Source: a virus. Taken from it: a stretch of DNA of 48,751 bases. The DNA lies in the IMG/VR virus record IMGVR_UViG_3300021368_000260, positions 1 to 48,751 of that record. One strand, written 5' to 3'. Both the position numbers and the translations under genes were made by a program. Of the stretch, positions 39,972-47,746 are shown piece after piece (positions within the stretch are counted from its first letter, which is position 1; each line of letters begins with the position of its first letter). The notes under the pieces were generated by a model. That model was not told the DNA's origin, made no database searches, and saw only the letters and a program-made list of their open reading frames with translations.

Positions 39972-41342
39972 ATGGCTTCTAAAATTAGAGTTGATAATAT
40001 TACCAACTTAGCTGGCAGTGGTTCGCTAGACGTTGAAGTTGGTATTGACATTAGTGGTGATATTAACTTCACTGGTTCTTTGCTGAAAAACGGACAACCG
40101 TTCGCTTCTCTGCCTGAACAAGATCCCACCACTAGTGGTGCGTTCCTAATGTCTAATGGTACGAGTGCTTATTGGGCAACTCCTACTACATTTGGTAATC
40201 CTGGTTTTAGTAGCACTCAGTTACCTGCAGGTAACGCAGACACAGGTGGTATCAACCTACAGAACCCAGTTGTTCAGTCCAGTGGTTATTATCCTTTCAC
40301 TGGTCAGGGGTCTTGGTATGATAATAGTGGAAACATTTACAACTTGACAATTGGATCTGAGTTTAAATATAGAAGCATTTTTACTCATGGTTTCTTGTCT
40401 GGTGGATATCGTGGTGCTAATCCTTGGAGAACAGTTAACCAAACATTCCATGCTACAGACGTTACCATCTGTCGTGGTGACCAACTAGACCGAGCAGCAG
40501 CATATGTTGACGGTAACTTTGGTGACTACAATGGTTACATCTATGGTGGTGCTAACGGATGGTCTCCAAACGGACCACACACCTCATCCATTAACCTACA
40601 CACTGGTACAGGTAGAACTGCTGGTTCTTCTCCTGACTACAACCACACTGATAACTACGGTACTACACCAGATAGCATCGGTGCATCTTGGGACCTTTAT
40701 GGATCACAAAATGATGGTGGTGCTACCTCTGGTCAAACTGTACAAAGAGGATATATCACTGGTGGTGGTGACCTAGGTTCTCAGTCCTGGAACAGAATGA
40801 ACTTCCACTCTGAACTTATTTCAAGAGTTAGTGGTGGACATGGTTCTGACTACTGTTCTAAAACAGAAGGTGAACTCAGAGGTTATTCTTATTCTGATAC
40901 AAGTAATTCTAGATATATTGAATTTGCATCTGAATCTACTGGTAACTGGTCTACATCTAACATCACGGGTGATGGATGGAAGAAGTCTCTATCTACAAAG
41001 TGGAATATTGGTTACCATGGAAATGGTAACAACGTAACCCAATCATGGATGAAGTTTACTCACAACACTGGATCTAGAGTTTCTAATTTCAACCAGAATG
41101 ATGTTTCTTCTGGTGAAGAGAATATGCAGATGGGTCAGGATTGGGGTTATATGCTAGGTAACTACTCTGGTGGTGGTGGATCTGGTAACGCTCGCCAGAA
41201 CAACAGAACATTCAAATTGTTCCACGCTACAGATAGCATGACTATGCTAGGATTTAAGACCGAACCAAAAGGACACCAAGGTCAATCCTCTGGTGCTTGC
41301 CACACTGGAGCATTCACTGTAACAGCAACTAGATATCAGTAA
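39972..41342 (+). CDS. Putative tail-fibre tip or adhesin protein (456 aa)
   Basis: A 456-aa protein. The N-terminus (KIRVDNITNLAGSGSLDVEV, ISGDINFTGSLLKNG) is a fibre-type trimerisation or attachment segment. The remainder is rich in Gly, Asn, Ser, Tyr and Trp with many His and few Lys (SYSDTSNSRYIEFASES, NYSGGGGSGNARQNNRTFKL), as in receptor-binding tips. It has its own late box and an AAGGA ribosome-binding site. The stop overlaps the next ATG by one base. A receptor-binding role is inferred from composition and position after the giant fibre gene, and no family is recognised for the C-terminal part. Confidence 0.6.
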   Translation: MASKIRVDNITNLAGSGSLDVEVGIDISGDINFTGSLLKNGQPFASLPEQDPTTSGAFLMSNGTSAYWATPTTFGNPGFSSTQLPAGNADTGGINLQNPVVQSSGYYPFTGQGSWYDNSGNIYNLTIGSEFKYRSIFTHGFLSGGYRGANPWRTVNQTFHATDVTICRGDQLDRAAAYVDGNFGDYNGYIYGGANGWSPNGPHTSSINLHTGTGRTAGSSPDYNHTDNYGTTPDSIGASWDLYGSQNDGGATSGQTVQRGYITGGGDLGSQSWNRMNFHSELISRVSGGHGSDYCSKTEGELRGYSYSDTSNSRYIEFASESTGNWSTSNITGDGWKKSLSTKWNIGYHGNGNNVTQSWMKFTHNTGSRVSNFNQNDVSSGEENMQMGQDWGYMLGNYSGGGGSGNARQNNRTFKLFHATDSMTMLGFKTEPKGHQGQSSGACHTGAFTVTATRYQ

Positions 41343-42277
41343 TGAAGAAATCAAATTTTATCGAACAAAAGGAATTTGAGGTTCAATGGACCCAAAGAGT
41401 GCCCTCTCATATGATTATAGAGGACAGTGAGTTTCTTCGTCCAAAGTATGAACCACAACATCCTCTAGAACTAGAGACTAGTAAATTCATTAAAGACAAA
41501 CAGAACCTGAAAAAAGGTGATGTTTTGATGGGAGTTTGTGAGGAAGATTTGCGTGCTATGGATATTCCAGCACACGAAACAACTTACCACAACGTGTTCA
41601 ACTTCTTCAGCATTGCTGTTGTAAGAATGAAGAGAGATGTATTTGAAACTCTCAAGTCTAGTCTAAAAAGATTTATTGAATTTGATGAGCAAGAACTTCA
41701 TGATGGTATCAACTATCAAGGTGAAGTTAGAGCATACTCTAAAGATTATCAAGGTGAGATGCAAGAGGATGGCACAATTAGTTACAGAAAAGTAAAAAGT
41801 CCTCTAACACAAAAGAAACTAGACAACGCAGTTTCTTTTATGAGAAAGATGGCGATCTTGGTTATTGAAAGAGAATTTGAACTTCGCTTCAAAAACTTCA
41901 AAAACTGCCATGATGTAGAACAAGAATCTTGGGCGTATCAAGTTCCAGAAGCAAGAGATCTTCTAAGAAATCCAGAAGCAAAGACACCTTTCCTTGATAT
42001 GCTTGCTATCACGAGGGGTATTGATAAGACGGTTCTTGCGAAAAAGATCATTAAGAACCATGATAAATATGTTGTGGAGTACGCTGCTCTACTTGGCAAA
42101 TATCACGCAATTAGATATCAGCTTAAAAACTGTGATAACATGTGGGATATGAATATACTATATGAGGATTATCTCAATATCGGTATGCCACTTGTCCAGG
42201 CGAAGAAACTAGGACGAATTGACGATAACAATGACAGATTGAATGGAGAACTCATTTATGGAACCTTCGGATTCTGA
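41342..42277 (+). CDS. Possible tail-fibre assembly protein (311 aa)
   Basis: A 311-aa soluble, charged, helix-rich protein, unlike its fibre neighbours. Residues about 200-265 (ESWAYQVPEARDLLRNPEAK, TPFLDMLAITRGIDKTVLAK) resemble the C-terminal 'EA..L..P...TP.LD.IA..RG' region of phage tail-fibre assembly proteins (DUF4376-like), which help fibres fold but are not always in the virion. Position right after two fibre genes agrees with this. The first 190 residues are not recognised. The start abuts the previous stop (TAATG). Confidence 0.45.
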   Translation: MKKSNFIEQKEFEVQWTQRVPSHMIIEDSEFLRPKYEPQHPLELETSKFIKDKQNLKKGDVLMGVCEEDLRAMDIPAHETTYHNVFNFFSIAVVRMKRDVFETLKSSLKRFIEFDEQELHDGINYQGEVRAYSKDYQGEMQEDGTISYRKVKSPLTQKKLDNAVSFMRKMAILVIEREFELRFKNFKNCHDVEQESWAYQVPEARDLLRNPEAKTPFLDMLAITRGIDKTVLAKKIIKNHDKYVVEYAALLGKYHAIRYQLKNCDNMWDMNILYEDYLNIGMPLVQAKKLGRIDDNNDRLNGELIYGTFGF

Positions 42278-43157
42278 ACTAAAACCCGTAGAACCATCAG
42301 CATCTAGTAGTAATACTCTTGCAAAACGAGAAGATTTAAGTCTGATTACTAAGGCGGATGCCACAGACGAACAAATCATTGACGCTGCGATTAATTTGCA
42401 GATGGGTCAAACTCGTTATCAGAACAATACTTTTGTCGTGGGATCACAGATCACGCCATACAAGAAAGTTCAGCAAGCTTTACTAGAACTAGAAACTAGA
42501 AATCACGGTTTCAAAGAATTAAAATACAAACAAAAACTCTGTATCAATAACAGAAAAGTTATTGAAAGATCTCTAAAGATTGAAAAGGAGAGAAAAGAAC
42601 CTGATGAACTAGAAATCGAAAGGTTGGAAATTGAATTAGATAAGGCAAACTATGATTGCAGTATCTACGAAAGAAAGCATGTTACATATGATAGAGAAAT
42701 TCGCGAGTTCTGTGACATGGTTCGCGAACATATGGAAGACGAAAAGTCGATTGAGCACTATCGTGTAACTAACGAGGAAGAAGATCGTAAGTATTGGATT
42801 ACTCGTATGGCAAAACAAGCGGCAGTCGATGTACATGCCATCGGTCGTCTCGGTAGTGGCAACCTAGATTCTATTATGAATATGCCACAAGCAGATCAAT
42901 TGGCAGCTATCAAAGGTGCAGTAGAACATGCTACACTATTGACTGCTGGCGTTGAACGTATGCAACAACAATTGCTTCCAGAAGTCAGACAGATTATGGA
43001 GCAAGAGTATGATAAACTAGATATGCCTAAACTCTTAGGTTTGGGTATGAATAATGAACCTATGATGCTTCCTGATGAGGTGACTAAACAAAATGAGCAA
43101 GAAACCAAAAAACCAAACAAAATCCGTATTCAGTCTTCCCGTAAATCCGAAGCTTGA
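42258..43157 (+). CDS. Hypothetical helical protein (299 aa)
   Basis: I choose ATG 42258 because GGAGA lies 8 bases upstream, whereas the in-frame ATG at 42243 has no ribosome-binding site. The product is acidic and mostly helical. Residues about 80-150 form a long charged helix or coiled coil (KERKEPDELEIERLEIELDK). The N-terminus is Ser/Pro-rich and the C-terminus is Lys/Gln-rich and probably disordered. No known family is recognised. It overlaps both neighbours (20 bases upstream, 65 downstream), so the three genes are probably co-translated. Confidence 0.7.
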   Translation: MEPSDSELKPVEPSASSSNTLAKREDLSLITKADATDEQIIDAAINLQMGQTRYQNNTFVVGSQITPYKKVQQALLELETRNHGFKELKYKQKLCINNRKVIERSLKIEKERKEPDELEIERLEIELDKANYDCSIYERKHVTYDREIREFCDMVREHMEDEKSIEHYRVTNEEEDRKYWITRMAKQAAVDVHAIGRLGSGNLDSIMNMPQADQLAAIKGAVEHATLLTAGVERMQQQLLPEVRQIMEQEYDKLDMPKLLGLGMNNEPMMLPDEVTKQNEQETKKPNKIRIQSSRKSEA

Positions 43158-44835
43158 TAAGGTATTTACAGATTCTGTAGTTATCCCTTGGTTGACAAGA
43201 TATAAGGACTATATCAAGGACTTGTATTTTACTTGCAGGATGCCACCTTTCGAGCAGGATGCCATGGGTGATATCTTTGCTGGTGATACAAGGCAACTTG
43301 TATATAATGCAATGGTGATCTCTAGAGAAACAGAGATCCCTTTGTCTGCTACTTTCAATAACATCTATGTTAGACCAGATCAGGAAGGTCTAGATTTGTT
43401 TGCACACAATTTCAAAGTTCTGTACGAAAGTGGAATTAAGATTGCAACTGTTCCCCATACAAGTTGGGTTGCTACTGGCATTCTACAAGATAGATTTCCA
43501 GATCTAAAGATCAAGAATACTATCCTTAGAAATGTCACTAAAGCAAATGAGATTGTATCTCTTGCTAAAGCAGGTTTCCATTATATTAATCTTGATAGAG
43601 ATTTGATGAGAGATCGTGATGCTCTACTGAGGATTAAAGATGCAAAAGAATATTGTGCTTCGATTGGTAAACCAGTAGAACTATCTTTGCTTGTCAATGA
43701 GGGATGCTGGGGTGGTTGCTCTATGATGGATGAGCATTACCATTTCAATAATACTAGAGAAGAAGGTCCACAGTATTTCATGGATCCTATCAGCACAAAT
43801 TCATGTGCTAAGTGGGATATTGAAGACAACTCTTCTGCTCTCAAGGCAGCAAACCTACCTCCATGGCGTGAAGATTGGGATGAGTTTATTGATCTTGGCA
43901 TCGATTGTTTCAAGATGCATGGTAGAGAAAACTCTATCCGCTTGAAAGAAAGTATGGATATCATTGAGCGTTGGGTAAAGAAAGAAGAACTTCTCTTCCC
44001 TGAGTTTGATGATTACATGGAAGATCTTGCAGTTAAGGATGCTCCTATCAATCTTTGGAGAGATAAAATCAAGAACTGTAAGTTTGACTGTTGGGACTGT
44101 AACTATTGTGACAGTGTTGTTGATGCTCATATCAAAAAGAAAGGAGAAGATCCTTCTGTAGAAGAATATACACAACGTTGTCTAGATGCAATTGATAATG
44201 CTCTGATCTATAAGTCCAACTTTAATGATCCTAAGTTCAGACCAATTGGTTTGAGTTCTAATCGTGTAAGACATCTGTTGAACAACCTTTGTTCTCATGA
44301 TGATGCTGTATACTTCGAGATGGGTACATTCATGGGTAGCACACTTTTCTCTGCTATCATGGGTAATGACATTCCTGCATTTGGAGTAGATAATTTCTCT
44401 GATCCAGAATGCAAACCAATGACTGAAAATGTCATGTGGACAGAAGTAGGAAATGCTTTTGATGAGTTCAAGATTAACTTTGAACAGTATGAGAATGGTC
44501 AAACTACATTTATTGGTAGCAGTGTTACTGATCTGGTAGAGAACGATTTTGAAGGACACAAACCAAACGTTGTGTTCTATGATGCTGGTCATGATTATGT
44601 TGAGCAACTCAATGCTCTAACTCATATCACTCCTTTCCTAGCAGACAAGTTTATCTTGGTTATTGATGATGCTAACTTTGATGGCGTAATTGATTCTGCT
44701 ATTCAGTATATTAAGGAACAAGACTTTGATGTGTGGTTTGAAAGGAAAATCTTGAGCACTATTCCAGAAAACCCAAGTCATTGGTGGAATGGTGTATACG
44801 TTTTGGTATTGGAAAAAAAGAATGAAAGTAATTGA
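43093..44835 (+). CDS. Fusion: U32-like cysteine-rich domain plus SAM-dependent methyltransferase
   Basis: A 580-aa protein with a GAGGTGA ribosome-binding site upstream. Residues about 40-345 look like a TIM-barrel of the peptidase-U32/UbiU-UbiV type: NTILRNVTKANEIVSLAKAG, HYINLDRDLMRD, ELSLLVNEGCWGGC, and DCFKMHGRE. Eight cysteines (205, 209, 238, 272, 329, 333, 336, 339), the last four as C-x3-C-x2-C-x2-C, could hold one or two iron-sulfur clusters. Residues about 400-575 are a class I methyltransferase of the Methyltransf_24 type: VYFEMGTFMGSTLFSAI (SAM loop), VVFYDAGHDYVEQ and FILVIDDANF. UbiU/UbiV relatives do oxygen-independent hydroxylation or RNA modification. The substrate here is unknown. 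It overlaps the downstream oxygenase gene by 14 bases. Confidence 0.65.
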   Translation: MSKKPKNQTKSVFSLPVNPKLDKVFTDSVVIPWLTRYKDYIKDLYFTCRMPPFEQDAMGDIFAGDTRQLVYNAMVISRETEIPLSATFNNIYVRPDQEGLDLFAHNFKVLYESGIKIATVPHTSWVATGILQDRFPDLKIKNTILRNVTKANEIVSLAKAGFHYINLDRDLMRDRDALLRIKDAKEYCASIGKPVELSLLVNEGCWGGCSMMDEHYHFNNTREEGPQYFMDPISTNSCAKWDIEDNSSALKAANLPPWREDWDEFIDLGIDCFKMHGRENSIRLKESMDIIERWVKKEELLFPEFDDYMEDLAVKDAPINLWRDKIKNCKFDCWDCNYCDSVVDAHIKKKGEDPSVEEYTQRCLDAIDNALIYKSNFNDPKFRPIGLSSNRVRHLLNNLCSHDDAVYFEMGTFMGSTLFSAIMGNDIPAFGVDNFSDPECKPMTENVMWTEVGNAFDEFKINFEQYENGQTTFIGSSVTDLVENDFEGHKPNVVFYDAGHDYVEQLNALTHITPFLADKFILVIDDANFDGVIDSAIQYIKEQDFDVWFERKILSTIPENPSHWWNGVYVLVLEKKNESN

Positions 44836-45535
44836 TCCTGCAGTATTTGGTGTAAATCACCCCTCCACTTGGGAGGTTGATGAAAAACATATTGGTAGAA
44901 GTAAAAACAAACTTGTTATTGTAAAAAACTTTTTTACCAATCCAGATGATCTAAGAATGTATGCACAGTCTGTTGATTATCTGAGTACAATTCAGGGTGA
45001 AGTAACTAACTTACCAGGATACCTGCACCTCATCAGTAACTTTAAGAAAGGATTGTATTCTCCTCTTAGATACATCTGTGCAAACTATTTTGGTTGCTCA
45101 GATGAAACTATGAGACATCCAGAAGAAAGTAGATTTTCTTTTCAGATTTATGATGTAGATGAAAAGGTGAGGTTTATGAGTTTGTATCCACACTCTGACT
45201 ACACTCGATATGCCGCTGTATTGTCACTTAACAATGATGATGAGTATGAAGGTGAAGTTCCTAATGGAACTGCCTTCTGGCGTGTCAAGGAAACTGGAGA
45301 GGAGTATGTCTGTGGTGAAAGAAACTACAGATCAGAAAGGATTGCCAATAAAGTAAACTCTATGGTATCGTTCGATCCTGCTAAAGTAAAGTTGAAGGAA
45401 TGGGAACGGTATCATGTAGAAGAACATTCAAACAATGCTCTTCTGCTATATGAAGGATCTCTATGGCATAGTCCATACTTCCAAAAAGATAATTGGAAAA
45501 CAAAGAGATTAACTTTCAACGCTTTCATCCGTTGA
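44822..45535 (+). CDS. 2OG-Fe(II)-type oxygenase, DUF6445-like
   Basis: A 237-aa protein starting at ATG 44822, inside the end of the U32-methyltransferase gene. A start at 44789 would lengthen the overlap with no benefit. The core YPHSDYTRYAAVLSLNND, EGEVPNGTAFWRVKETG and LLLYEGSLWHSPYF fits DUF6445/2OG oxygenases: His124-x-Asp126 and His216 as iron ligands, and Arg229 as a candidate for 2-oxoglutarate. It is probably translated together with the upstream fusion protein, suggesting a shared substrate or pathway. It differs clearly from the smaller oxygenase at 961-1518. Confidence 0.7.
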   Translation: MKVIDPAVFGVNHPSTWEVDEKHIGRSKNKLVIVKNFFTNPDDLRMYAQSVDYLSTIQGEVTNLPGYLHLISNFKKGLYSPLRYICANYFGCSDETMRHPEESRFSFQIYDVDEKVRFMSLYPHSDYTRYAAVLSLNNDDEYEGEVPNGTAFWRVKETGEEYVCGERNYRSERIANKVNSMVSFDPAKVKLKEWERYHVEEHSNNALLLYEGSLWHSPYFQKDNWKTKRLTFNAFIR

Positions 45536-45541: not shown

Positions 45542-45568
45542 AAGTACACAATATTCCCTGTGATAACT

Positions 45569-45769
45569 ATGGATCCCGCAACTCTTAAGAAAAATTTTGA
45601 GGAGCAAATTGCTACCACTGATAAGCAAATTGCAGAACTAGAAGACAACCTCAAGAAAGCAAATGAGTATAAACTCAAACTAGTGGGTGGTCTTGAAACT
45701 CTAGGTCTACTAGAAGGAGAAGGAGCAGCACCTGAGGCAGAACCAGCACCAACTGAAGTAGTAGAATAA
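45569..45769 (+). CDS. Small coiled-coil protein with Pro/Glu tail
   Basis: A 66-aa protein from ATG 45569; a GTG at 45560 in the same frame would add three residues. Residues 5-40 form a probable coiled coil (LKKNFEEQIATTDKQIAELE, DNLKKANEYK). The tail is acidic and Ala/Pro-rich (EGAAPEAEPAPTEVVE), so likely disordered. It has its own late box upstream and a terminator downstream, so it may be transcribed as a short abundant message. Function is unknown. Confidence 0.75.
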   Translation: MDPATLKKNFEEQIATTDKQIAELEDNLKKANEYKLKLVGGLETLGLLEGEGAAPEAEPAPTEVVE

Positions 45770-46621: not shown

Positions 46622-47746
46622 ATGCCTACAAGTCCCTACTTTCCAACTTATTACCAAGGTCACAGTGGCGAACAAGGTCTCGTACAGGATCTTGTGGATG
46701 AGCAAATCAAACTGTTTGGTACAGACATATACTATATCCCTAGGATAGTTCTACAAGACAGCACACTGGATGAAGTTAGATACTCTAAGTATCAGGAACA
46801 ATTCCAGATCGAAATGCTATTGCAGAATGTCACAGGTTTTGGTGACAATGCTGAGTTCATCTCCAAGTTCGGTTTAAGAATTACAGACGAAATTATTTTC
46901 CGTGTGTCTACTAGACGCTGGGATGAAGAAGTAGCAGAGCATAGTCCTACTCTAACAGTAGAGAGCAGACCTAATGAAGGTGATCTGCTGTACTTCCCAT
47001 TGACAAAAGATATCTACGAAATCAAGTTTGTTGGTAAAGAAGAACCATTCTTCCAGTTTGGTAAGATCCAGTTCTACGCTATCACTGCTGAGATCTATGA
47101 AATCGGCAGCGATGACTTTGACACTGGTGTTGCAGAGATTGATGCAGTAGAACAACTCTTCGATAATGCCATCAAACTATTCATGGATCCTGGTGGCACT
47201 GGTGACTTCACTGTAGGTGAGGAAGTTGTAGGTGATGAATTCCTAGCAAAAGCAACTGCTGCTATTACTGGCGATGCTGTTTCAGGTATAACTATTACAG
47301 ATGGCGGAGCACATTACAAAGTTGCTACGCCACCATCAGTAACTATTTCTGGAGGAGGTGGTACAGGTGCAACAGCAACTTCTACGGTTAGTAGCACAGG
47401 CATCGTTAATGGTATTACTATTACTAGCGGTGGGTCAGGTTATACTTCTGTCCCTACTGTCGTCATTGACTATTCCCCTAAAGACAATAGAGCAGAAGTC
47501 AAGTCCTGGGACAGCACAACCAGATCTCTCCAAGTCATCAATAGGACAGGAACCTTCACAACCGATGAAGTAGTAACTGGTCTAACCTCAGGTGCAAAAT
47601 GGTCTCCTGAGACATTTGACACTCTAAATAATGTCAGCAGTAACTATGATCAAAATAGGCAGATTGAAGATGCCGCTGATGACATTATTGATTGGACGGA
47701 AGGTAATCCGTTTGGTGAAGCTGGTAATTTTACAGGTAGTATCTAA
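46622..47746 (+). CDS. 14: Neck protein gp14, with inserted beta repeats
   Basis: A 374-aa protein (T4 gp14 is 256 aa). The first 190 residues match the gp14 family: SPYFPTYYQGHSGEQGLVQD, LVDEQIKLFGTDIYYIPR, FGDNAEFISKFGLRITDE, and LLYFPLTKDIYEIKFV. Residues about 210-285 are an insertion of two GGSGY-type repeats (ITDGGAHYKVATPPSVTISG and ITSGGSGYTSVPTVVIDYSP). The ending (EGNPFGEAGNFTGSI) is typical of gp14 C-termini. It binds gp13 in the neck. The extra length is explained by the repeat insertion. The stop overlaps the next ATG by one base. Confidence 0.93.
   Translation: MPTSPYFPTYYQGHSGEQGLVQDLVDEQIKLFGTDIYYIPRIVLQDSTLDEVRYSKYQEQFQIEMLLQNVTGFGDNAEFISKFGLRITDEIIFRVSTRRWDEEVAEHSPTLTVESRPNEGDLLYFPLTKDIYEIKFVGKEEPFFQFGKIQFYAITAEIYEIGSDDFDTGVAEIDAVEQLFDNAIKLFMDPGGTGDFTVGEEVVGDEFLAKATAAITGDAVSGITITDGGAHYKVATPPSVTISGGGGTGATATSTVSSTGIVNGITITSGGSGYTSVPTVVIDYSPKDNRAEVKSWDSTTRSLQVINRTGTFTTDEVVTGLTSGAKWSPETFDTLNNVSSNYDQNRQIEDAADDIIDWTEGNPFGEAGNFTGSI
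47250..47470 (+). repeat. GGSGY-type beta repeats inserted in gp14
   Basis: Two copies with GGGGTGATATS between them, of the same family as in the tail and baseplate proteins, here in a neck protein. Confidence 0.8.

Follow-up and report, generated by a model that had tools for sequence, protein, structure and literature searches.

A U32-type barrel–O-methyltransferase fusion linked to a fibre-like cassette and an exchangeable oxygenase slot in T4-like marine phages

Why should a virus carry two overlapping enzyme genes among its structural genes, and do the two enzymes form a fixed pair? We addressed this question for a 48,751-nucleotide virus record (IMG/VR record IMGVR_UViG_3300021368_000260, positions 1 to 48,751; this whole stretch is hereafter the window), in which a preliminary description had read a U32-like barrel fused to a complete S-adenosylmethionine (SAM) methyltransferase (open reading frame (ORF) A) and, overlapping it by 14 bases, a 2-oxoglutarate (2OG)-type oxygenase (ORF B) as a coupled pair lying between fibre and neck genes. 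We tentatively favour reading A as the central tailoring enzyme of a mobile fibre cassette in T4-like marine phages and B as an interchangeable accessory, the substrate probably being a protein of the cassette. The features of the two genes are as follows.

43077..43083, plus strand: Shine–Dalgarno-like GAGGTGA upstream of ORF A (seen in the sequence, its function presumed)
43093..44835, plus strand: ORF A, 580 aa, U32-type barrel fused to a class I O-methyltransferase (phrog_1458, E=4.7e-241)
43093..44121, plus strand: barrel domain of ORF A, with C205, C209 and C238 followed by CX3CX2CX2C at C329-C339 (alignment, predicted fold and profile)
44122..44832, plus strand: O-methyltransferase domain of ORF A, Methyltransf_24/COMT type, with D497, D525 and D526 invariant (Pfam, predicted fold and alignment)
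44822..45535, plus strand: ORF B, DUF6445 2OG-Fe(II) oxygenase, 237 aa (Pfam, predicted fold and alignment)

Both frames were confirmed to be open at these positions, with the 14-base overlap, and the 580 codons of A far exceed the chance expectation (longest stop-free run of 182 in 200 mononucleotide shuffles of the region). The start of A at 43093 is supported by the N-terminus VFSLPINPK, conserved in relatives, and by GAGGTGA 9 bases upstream. An alternative longer start for B exists at 44789, and its relatives start at the ATG at 44822. Two RefSeq models of A, those of S-CAM4 (L002:12151-13734) and S-RIM2 (L003:12160-13725), start about 50 codons late; the S-CAM4 start, at record position 101841, was judged so by alignment.

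To the question of a fixed pair the answer was negative. A search with tblastn recovered A from 123 of 50,697 phage records, all of Synechococcus or Prochlorococcus phages and each covering at least 80% of A, and B from only 9, which refutes strict co-occurrence of the two. Six of the nine (S-CAM4/ACG-2014j) have B behind A, whereas S-H9-1, with its B homologue behind the major head gene, and Sf-FS3, with B elsewhere, have no A in either genome. Across 84 A loci from IMG/VR, the window and phages, A and B occurred together in 51, nearly all belonging to one clade, and distant B homologues (31-39% identity) lay further downstream of A in seven further loci. The conserved feature is an exchangeable oxygenase slot behind A, not B itself: a 2OG oxygenase gene directly followed A (start within -90 to +160 bases of the A end) at 79 of 101 loci, which represent the 111 different A sequences less 10 with under 700 bases downstream. 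By Pfam, 38 of the 79 slot oxygenases are DUF6445 and 41 come from four other families; the slot gene of S-RIM2, labelled 'tail fiber protein', weakly matches PF13640 (E=3.6e-4, below the cut-off). Oxygenases are frequent across these genomes (about a dozen each, for example 10 in S-RIM2 and 12 in S-CAM4, DUF6445 included), but their density behind A is higher, with 3 of the 10 in S-RIM2 and 4 of the 12 in S-CAM4 located within about 5.5 kb of A. Tryptophan halogenase genes were also found behind or near A, at L254:7629-9182 and L134:885-2474 (Pfam-confirmed) and at L078:6673-8196 (by cluster); at L078 and L254 a gene of this type fills the slot itself. The halogenase-bearing viral contigs also carry oxygenases near A, and at L234:7668-11564 a run of seven genes stands behind A, of which four or more look like oxygenases by profile.

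The partners of A are found on its other side. Three genes upstream of A form the cassette together with it, and a neck gene lies beyond B:

39972..41342, plus strand: phrog_1417 fibre-like protein, the candidate cassette substrate, called 'fibre' from its position and sequence character (PHROG, linkage)
41342..42277, plus strand: phrog_1604 gene, conserved (PHROG, linkage)
42243..43157, plus strand: phrog_1409 gene, conserved, overlapping ORF A by 65 bases (PHROG, linkage)
46622-47746: T4 neck protein gene (Pfam E=1.5e-20)

The placement between fibre-type and neck genes is thus correct, and the association with a fibre-type gene turned out to be far tighter than could be seen from one sequence. 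With tblastn, phrog_1409 and phrog_1417 were each found in 123 of the 50,697 phage records with the same breakdown as ORF A (77 Synechococcus, 38 Cyanophage and 8 Prochlorococcus), the sameness of the three sets being judged by these counts and organisms, and with phrog_1417 identity of only about 28% across most of the records. The phrog_1604 gene occurred in 111 cyanophage records and 10 others; for comparison, the neck gene matched 2290 phage records. Among the IMG/VR fibre loci offering 3 kb or more of room, A was located 1.67-1.79 kb downstream in 28 of 28 (6 of 34 loci had less than 3 kb and were excluded; A was visible in three of these and not in the other three). Scanned from the side of A, the fibre gene was present, in one to three copies, in 69 of 70 loci having 3 kb or more upstream, L179 alone lacking it; these 70 are the 77 loci (L179-L255) new to the second scan minus 7 with less than 3 kb upstream. 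The cassette behaves as a unit in part of the cyanophages, and this linkage is the main reason for placing the substrate inside it, without separating the fibre from phrog_1409. At L243:1421-8234 the cassette is duplicated in tandem, a fibre gene separating two complete copies of A.

The fusion itself has a counterpart in two genes. Relatives of ORF A were found in at least 570 IMG/VR stretches, and a scan with a bacterial-type query recovered a further viral clade whose barrel has a gene to itself (341-359 aa), with the methyltransferase encoded by the next gene, overlapping or abutting; in its representative L184 a radical SAM gene (E=4.5e-9) precedes the barrel gene. A tree of 88 barrel sequences placed the fused forms in one fully supported group and the split forms in another, with the bacterial sequences outside; barrel-alone rows inside the viral groups stop at contig ends, except for L158 and L179. 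Because the sister clade encodes both proteins as overlapping separate genes, the coupling of barrel and methyltransferase is independent of fusion. A barrel-only phage family, suggested by phrog_36869, was rejected, as all 123 phage matches cover at least 80% of ORF A; a split gene in P-SSM3 may be the source of its appearance.

Outside the viruses, eight loci with a barrel homologue were recovered from a genome collection, two of which (L156 and L157) look viral by their neighbours and tree position, while L158 clusters with the viral L179. Bacterial relatives are rare, occurring in 1 of 298 genomes of one phylum and 2 of 155 of one class, the starting genome counted each time. In Sulfurimonas and in a Campylobacteraceae metagenome-assembled genome (MAG) (L159 and L160) a stand-alone barrel gene lies immediately before the TolC, ABC transporter and HlyD genes of a type I secretion operon, and in a Campylobacterales MAG (L162) the barrel gene is directly followed by a DUF6445 gene (E=2.1e-22) and then a radical SAM/SPASM gene, an order showing that an A-type barrel and DUF6445 meet outside phages too. 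Several other neighbourhoods were noted. Just upstream of the barrel gene of L160 another protein ends that looks RTX-like on visual inspection; in a Hydrogenimonas MAG (L163:6660-9059) a RAMP (type III CRISPR-type) gene ends 25 bases before the homologue; and genome G343 (L177:1-2014) has a tandem pair of homologues, of which the first is truncated at the contig end. A GLUG-repeat protein of Syntrophaceae was rejected as a partner, lying 3.7 kb from the barrel gene with opposite-strand genes between.

What kind of protein, then, is A? The barrel is of U32 type by its predicted fold. In an AlphaFold2 model of ORF A (mean predicted local distance difference test (pLDDT) score 78.6, predicted template-modelling score 0.53) the barrel core and the methyltransferase were confident, and residues 8-284 aligned with 5d88, a solved U32 domain, at Z 15.8 over 215 residues and 4.5 Å (VIA-align; Foldseek E=4.5e-6); the Foldseek and VIA lists are headed by matches to the methyltransferase domain, and 5d88 is the one solved relative behind the barrel assignment. 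Furthermore, a profile of the 88 barrel sequences aligned collinearly with a profile of 29 U32 proteins by hhalign (E=3.4e-4), compared with E=0.22 for 29 triosephosphate isomerases (TIMs; 29 of the 30 loci retrieved), 0.15 for the methyltransferase family and 0.72 for DUF6445 as controls; smaller sequence sets matched U32 weakly (E 0.025 and 0.0098). The U32-like barrel of the preliminary description is borne out by the fold, with the remote profile match (probability 38%) suggestive, whereas Pfam did not recover it: no PF01136 match appeared in the ORF A protein at E up to 1, nor at 0.1 in the homologues L158, L159, L161 and L162. A search of PDB sequences with ORF A and ORF B gave nothing useful. 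Foldseek also matched the model to BFVD A0A3G3MCS7, a 'Peptidase' of Escherichia phage OLB35 (E=1.1e-8), possibly a further phage U32-type protein.

Residues 1-345 contain ten cysteines rather than the eight first counted. Seven of them (C205, C209, C238, C329, C333, C336 and C339) are shared by all 26 aligned viral proteins; in the wider set of 88, the first five were present in 88 of 88 and C336 and C339 in 87 of 88, with a gap in one row. They are spaced C205-X3-C209-X28-C238 ... C329-X3-C333-X2-C336-X2-C339, the first three within or near the barrel and the C329-C339 group C-terminal to it. C48 is an unlikely ligand, since 16 of the 88 sequences have Ser, Tyr or Thr in its place. The barrel domain is the more conserved, with mean column identity of 72% against 47% for the methyltransferase domain. 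Like the U32 oxidases UbiU, UbiV, TrhP and RlhA (PF01136), ORF A combines a TIM-barrel fold with conserved barrel cysteines; unlike them it lies below Pfam detection, has another cysteine pattern, occurs in phages and has an O-methyltransferase fused or paired, with a substrate that is only a candidate. We found no paper joining cyanophage with peptidase U32, and among the matches listed for U32 peptidase with phage, methyltransferase and tail fiber none mentioned U32 peptidase.

The methyltransferase domain appears complete, as had been described, with a class I fold and with E409, G411, D497, D525 and D526 invariant in 26 of 26 aligned proteins. D497, D525 and D526 stand where the metal-ligand aspartates of NovP-type enzymes would be expected. 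The Methyltransf_24 score was 21.9 bits in ORF A, just under the 26.3 cut-off, and 29.6 bits in the split homologue L184. The closest structures, all class I O-methyltransferases, included MeT1 (Z 16.8), TomG, TrmR of Bacillus subtilis (16.2), MycF (16.1), SpnH (15.7), NovP (14.9) and COMT. The domain resembles MycF, NovP, SpnH, COMT, TrmR and MeT1 in fold (Z 15-17) and in three conserved aspartates, and differs from Methyltransf_24 and cation-dependent O-methyltransferases in being part of a fusion and in being acidic.

ORF B is a DUF6445 protein (PF20043, E=8e-15, 55.8 bits against a cut-off of 24, residues 18-236). Its model (pLDDT 90) has the double-stranded beta helix and the HxD...H...R residues of a 2OG oxygenase, the type named in the preliminary description, and H124, D126, H216 and R229 were invariant in 33 of 33 aligned sequences, one of them bacterial. 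All listed structural matches were 2OG oxygenases, with the protein hydroxylases OGFOD1 (Z 14.6) and LH3 (14.5) at the top and the mimivirus lysyl hydroxylase (14.4) next; DUF6445 shares this fold and HxD...H...R with viral lysyl or prolyl hydroxylases. This fold and these invariant residues lend no support to the PHROG name 'minor coat protein' (phrog_1644). Our literature search found no paper containing the word DUF6445.

How could such enzymes act together? By analogy with U32 oxidases and cation-dependent O-methyltransferases, we propose hydroxylation followed by O-methylation. The barrel would probably hold two Fe-S centres, one on the three barrel cysteines and one on the C-terminal CX3CX2CX2C; with three cysteines, one iron site would stay open, as in IspH, and the four C-terminal cysteines could hold the second cluster. 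IspH is named as a possible analogue of U32 enzymes in the available part of PMC11574389, and the U32 oxidases are described as carrying out O2-independent hydroxylation with prephenate as the likely oxygen source (available parts of PMC11574389 and PMC6599085). The barrel of A would oxidise or hydroxylate its substrate without O2, the fused, metal-dependent O-methyltransferase would methylate the new hydroxyl from SAM, and ORF B or the 2OG-Fe(II) oxygenases that substitute for it would add more hydroxyls. The substrate would most likely be a cassette protein, the first candidate being the phrog_1417 fibre-like protein. A protein target is favoured on several grounds: the fibre linkage, the folds nearest to B, neighbouring genes for radical SAM proteins, halogenases and oxygenases, and, in bacteria, the adjacent secretion operon. 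A comparable design is the TrhO-TrmR fusion of Phytophthora and a diatom, which joins a hydroxylase and an O-methyltransferase in one protein to make 5-methoxyuridine 34 (mo5U34), according to the accessible text of PMC6599085; there, unlike in ORF A, the hydroxylase half is a rhodanese and not U32, the protein acts on tRNA, and no fibre cassette is involved. A highly speculative elaboration is that aromatic residues of phrog_1417, of which Tyr146, Trp152, Tyr178, Tyr348, Tyr393 and Tyr398 are conserved in the alignment, are ring-hydroxylated by the barrel to a catechol resembling 3,4-dihydroxyphenylalanine (DOPA), that the COMT-like domain O-methylates them and that the exchangeable neighbours (2OG oxygenases, tryptophan halogenase) oxidise them further or halogenate them, yielding an adhesive fibre.

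Other substrates were weighed on the same evidence. The sugar O-methyltransferases MycF, SpnH and NovP among the nearest methyltransferase structures, together with macrocin O-methyltransferase-like proteins among the viral Foldseek matches, would fit a glycan or small molecule as the target, such as a sugar on the fibre or on a host surface polysaccharide, with the oxygenases acting on the same molecule. However, the methyltransferase rows within 1 Z unit tie and so do not indicate the substrate, no glycosyltransferase was annotated directly beside A among the neighbours run through Pfam, the best structural matches of B are protein hydroxylases and the tight partner is a fibre-type gene; we regard this alternative as unlikely, though it deserves consideration. 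The presence of B. subtilis TrmR in the same list raises the case of RNA, in which the barrel would hydroxylate a pyrimidine in the manner of TrhP and RlhA and the methyltransferase domain would then methylate it, as TrmR converts 5-hydroxyuridine (ho5U) to mo5U. In the accessible text of PMC6599085 the U32 protein TrhP makes ho5U34, TrmR O-methylates it, and the other hydroxylase, TrhO, is fused to TrmR in some eukaryotes. Yet ORF A is highly acidic (isoelectric point 4.8, net charge -32), unlike a typical RNA enzyme, its cysteine pattern is unlike that of U32 RNA hydroxylases as given in the part of PMC6747719 available, and its linkage is to the fibre cassette and not to RNA genes, with no tRNA gene in the 48,751-base window, making an RNA substrate improbable.

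The oxygenases might instead serve host metabolism, in 2-oxoglutarate or nitrogen signalling, their placement beside A being incidental. A metabolic role was suggested for cyanophage 2OG oxygenases generally by Sullivan et al. 2010 (PMC3037559, available part), and oxygenases do occur at many other sites in the same genomes. Incidental placement is nevertheless quite unlikely given the slot occupied in 79 of 101 loci, the crowding of oxygenases within about 5.5 kb of A in S-RIM2 and S-CAM4, and the recurrence of the U32-like and DUF6445 order in the bacterial L162. Finally, the PHROG and RefSeq labels ('minor coat protein', phrog_1644) and the location among structural genes would suit structural or assembly proteins that have lost catalysis; that the predicted catalytic or ligand residues are all invariant in wide alignments (the seven cysteines, D497/D525/D526 and H124/D126/H216/R229) makes this very improbable.

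The reading of A as a tailoring enzyme of the fibre cassette also has observations set against it. Within the barrel, the cysteine loops are of low confidence in the model (residues 204-254 and 311-354, pLDDT <50) and the hhalign probability of the U32 match is 38%. The published U32 four-cysteine motif CX6CX15CX3/4C (with CXnCX12CX3C in UbiV; PMC6747719, available part) is absent, ORF A having CX3C, C and CX3CX2CX2C, so that both the Fe-S assignment and the chemistry may differ, and with neither the Pfam profile nor the published motif matched ORF A is not a proven member of PF01136. With regard to the substrate, that role could fall to phrog_1409, whose linkage is no looser than that of the fibre, and phrog_1417 is presumed to be a virion component from its position and sequence character. 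The wide fibre alignment contains one fully invariant column, a glycine, and therefore offers no obvious single modified residue, several Tyr, Trp and Lys being mostly conserved. As for the linkage, the phage records are highly redundant (S-RIM2, S-RIM12), so the 123 records are not 123 independent events; in L179 and the bacterial homologues the barrel is accompanied by neither the fibre nor the methyltransferase domain; and 3 of 16 further genomes were inspected beyond the match table.

Taken together, A represents known kinds of enzyme in an unexpected setting, and its near-constant linkage to one fibre-like protein, often with an oxygenase gene alongside, suggests that these marine viruses of cyanobacteria chemically decorate a part possibly used to grip the host. 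The many oxygenases and other enzymes of cyanophages are read as metabolic, and the fibre link provides a concrete alternative, modification of a virion protein. If this is true, the U32 fold would be extended to a new class of substrate and host contact could change without change of the fibre sequence; a catechol fibre, were it real, would make A the first protein hydroxylase with a U32 fold to work without O2, and would give phages an equivalent of tailored adhesive proteins.

Downstream of ORF B, the window continues with T4-type neck and sheath-stabiliser genes (Pfam). Immediately behind B lies a small coiled-coil-like ORF with a GTG start (45560-45769, phrog_580), a presumed relative of a cluster of small genes that recurs behind A at 62 of 111 loci. 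Near the opposite end of the window, an oxygenase-type ORF at positions 961-1515 matches the ox14 profile.

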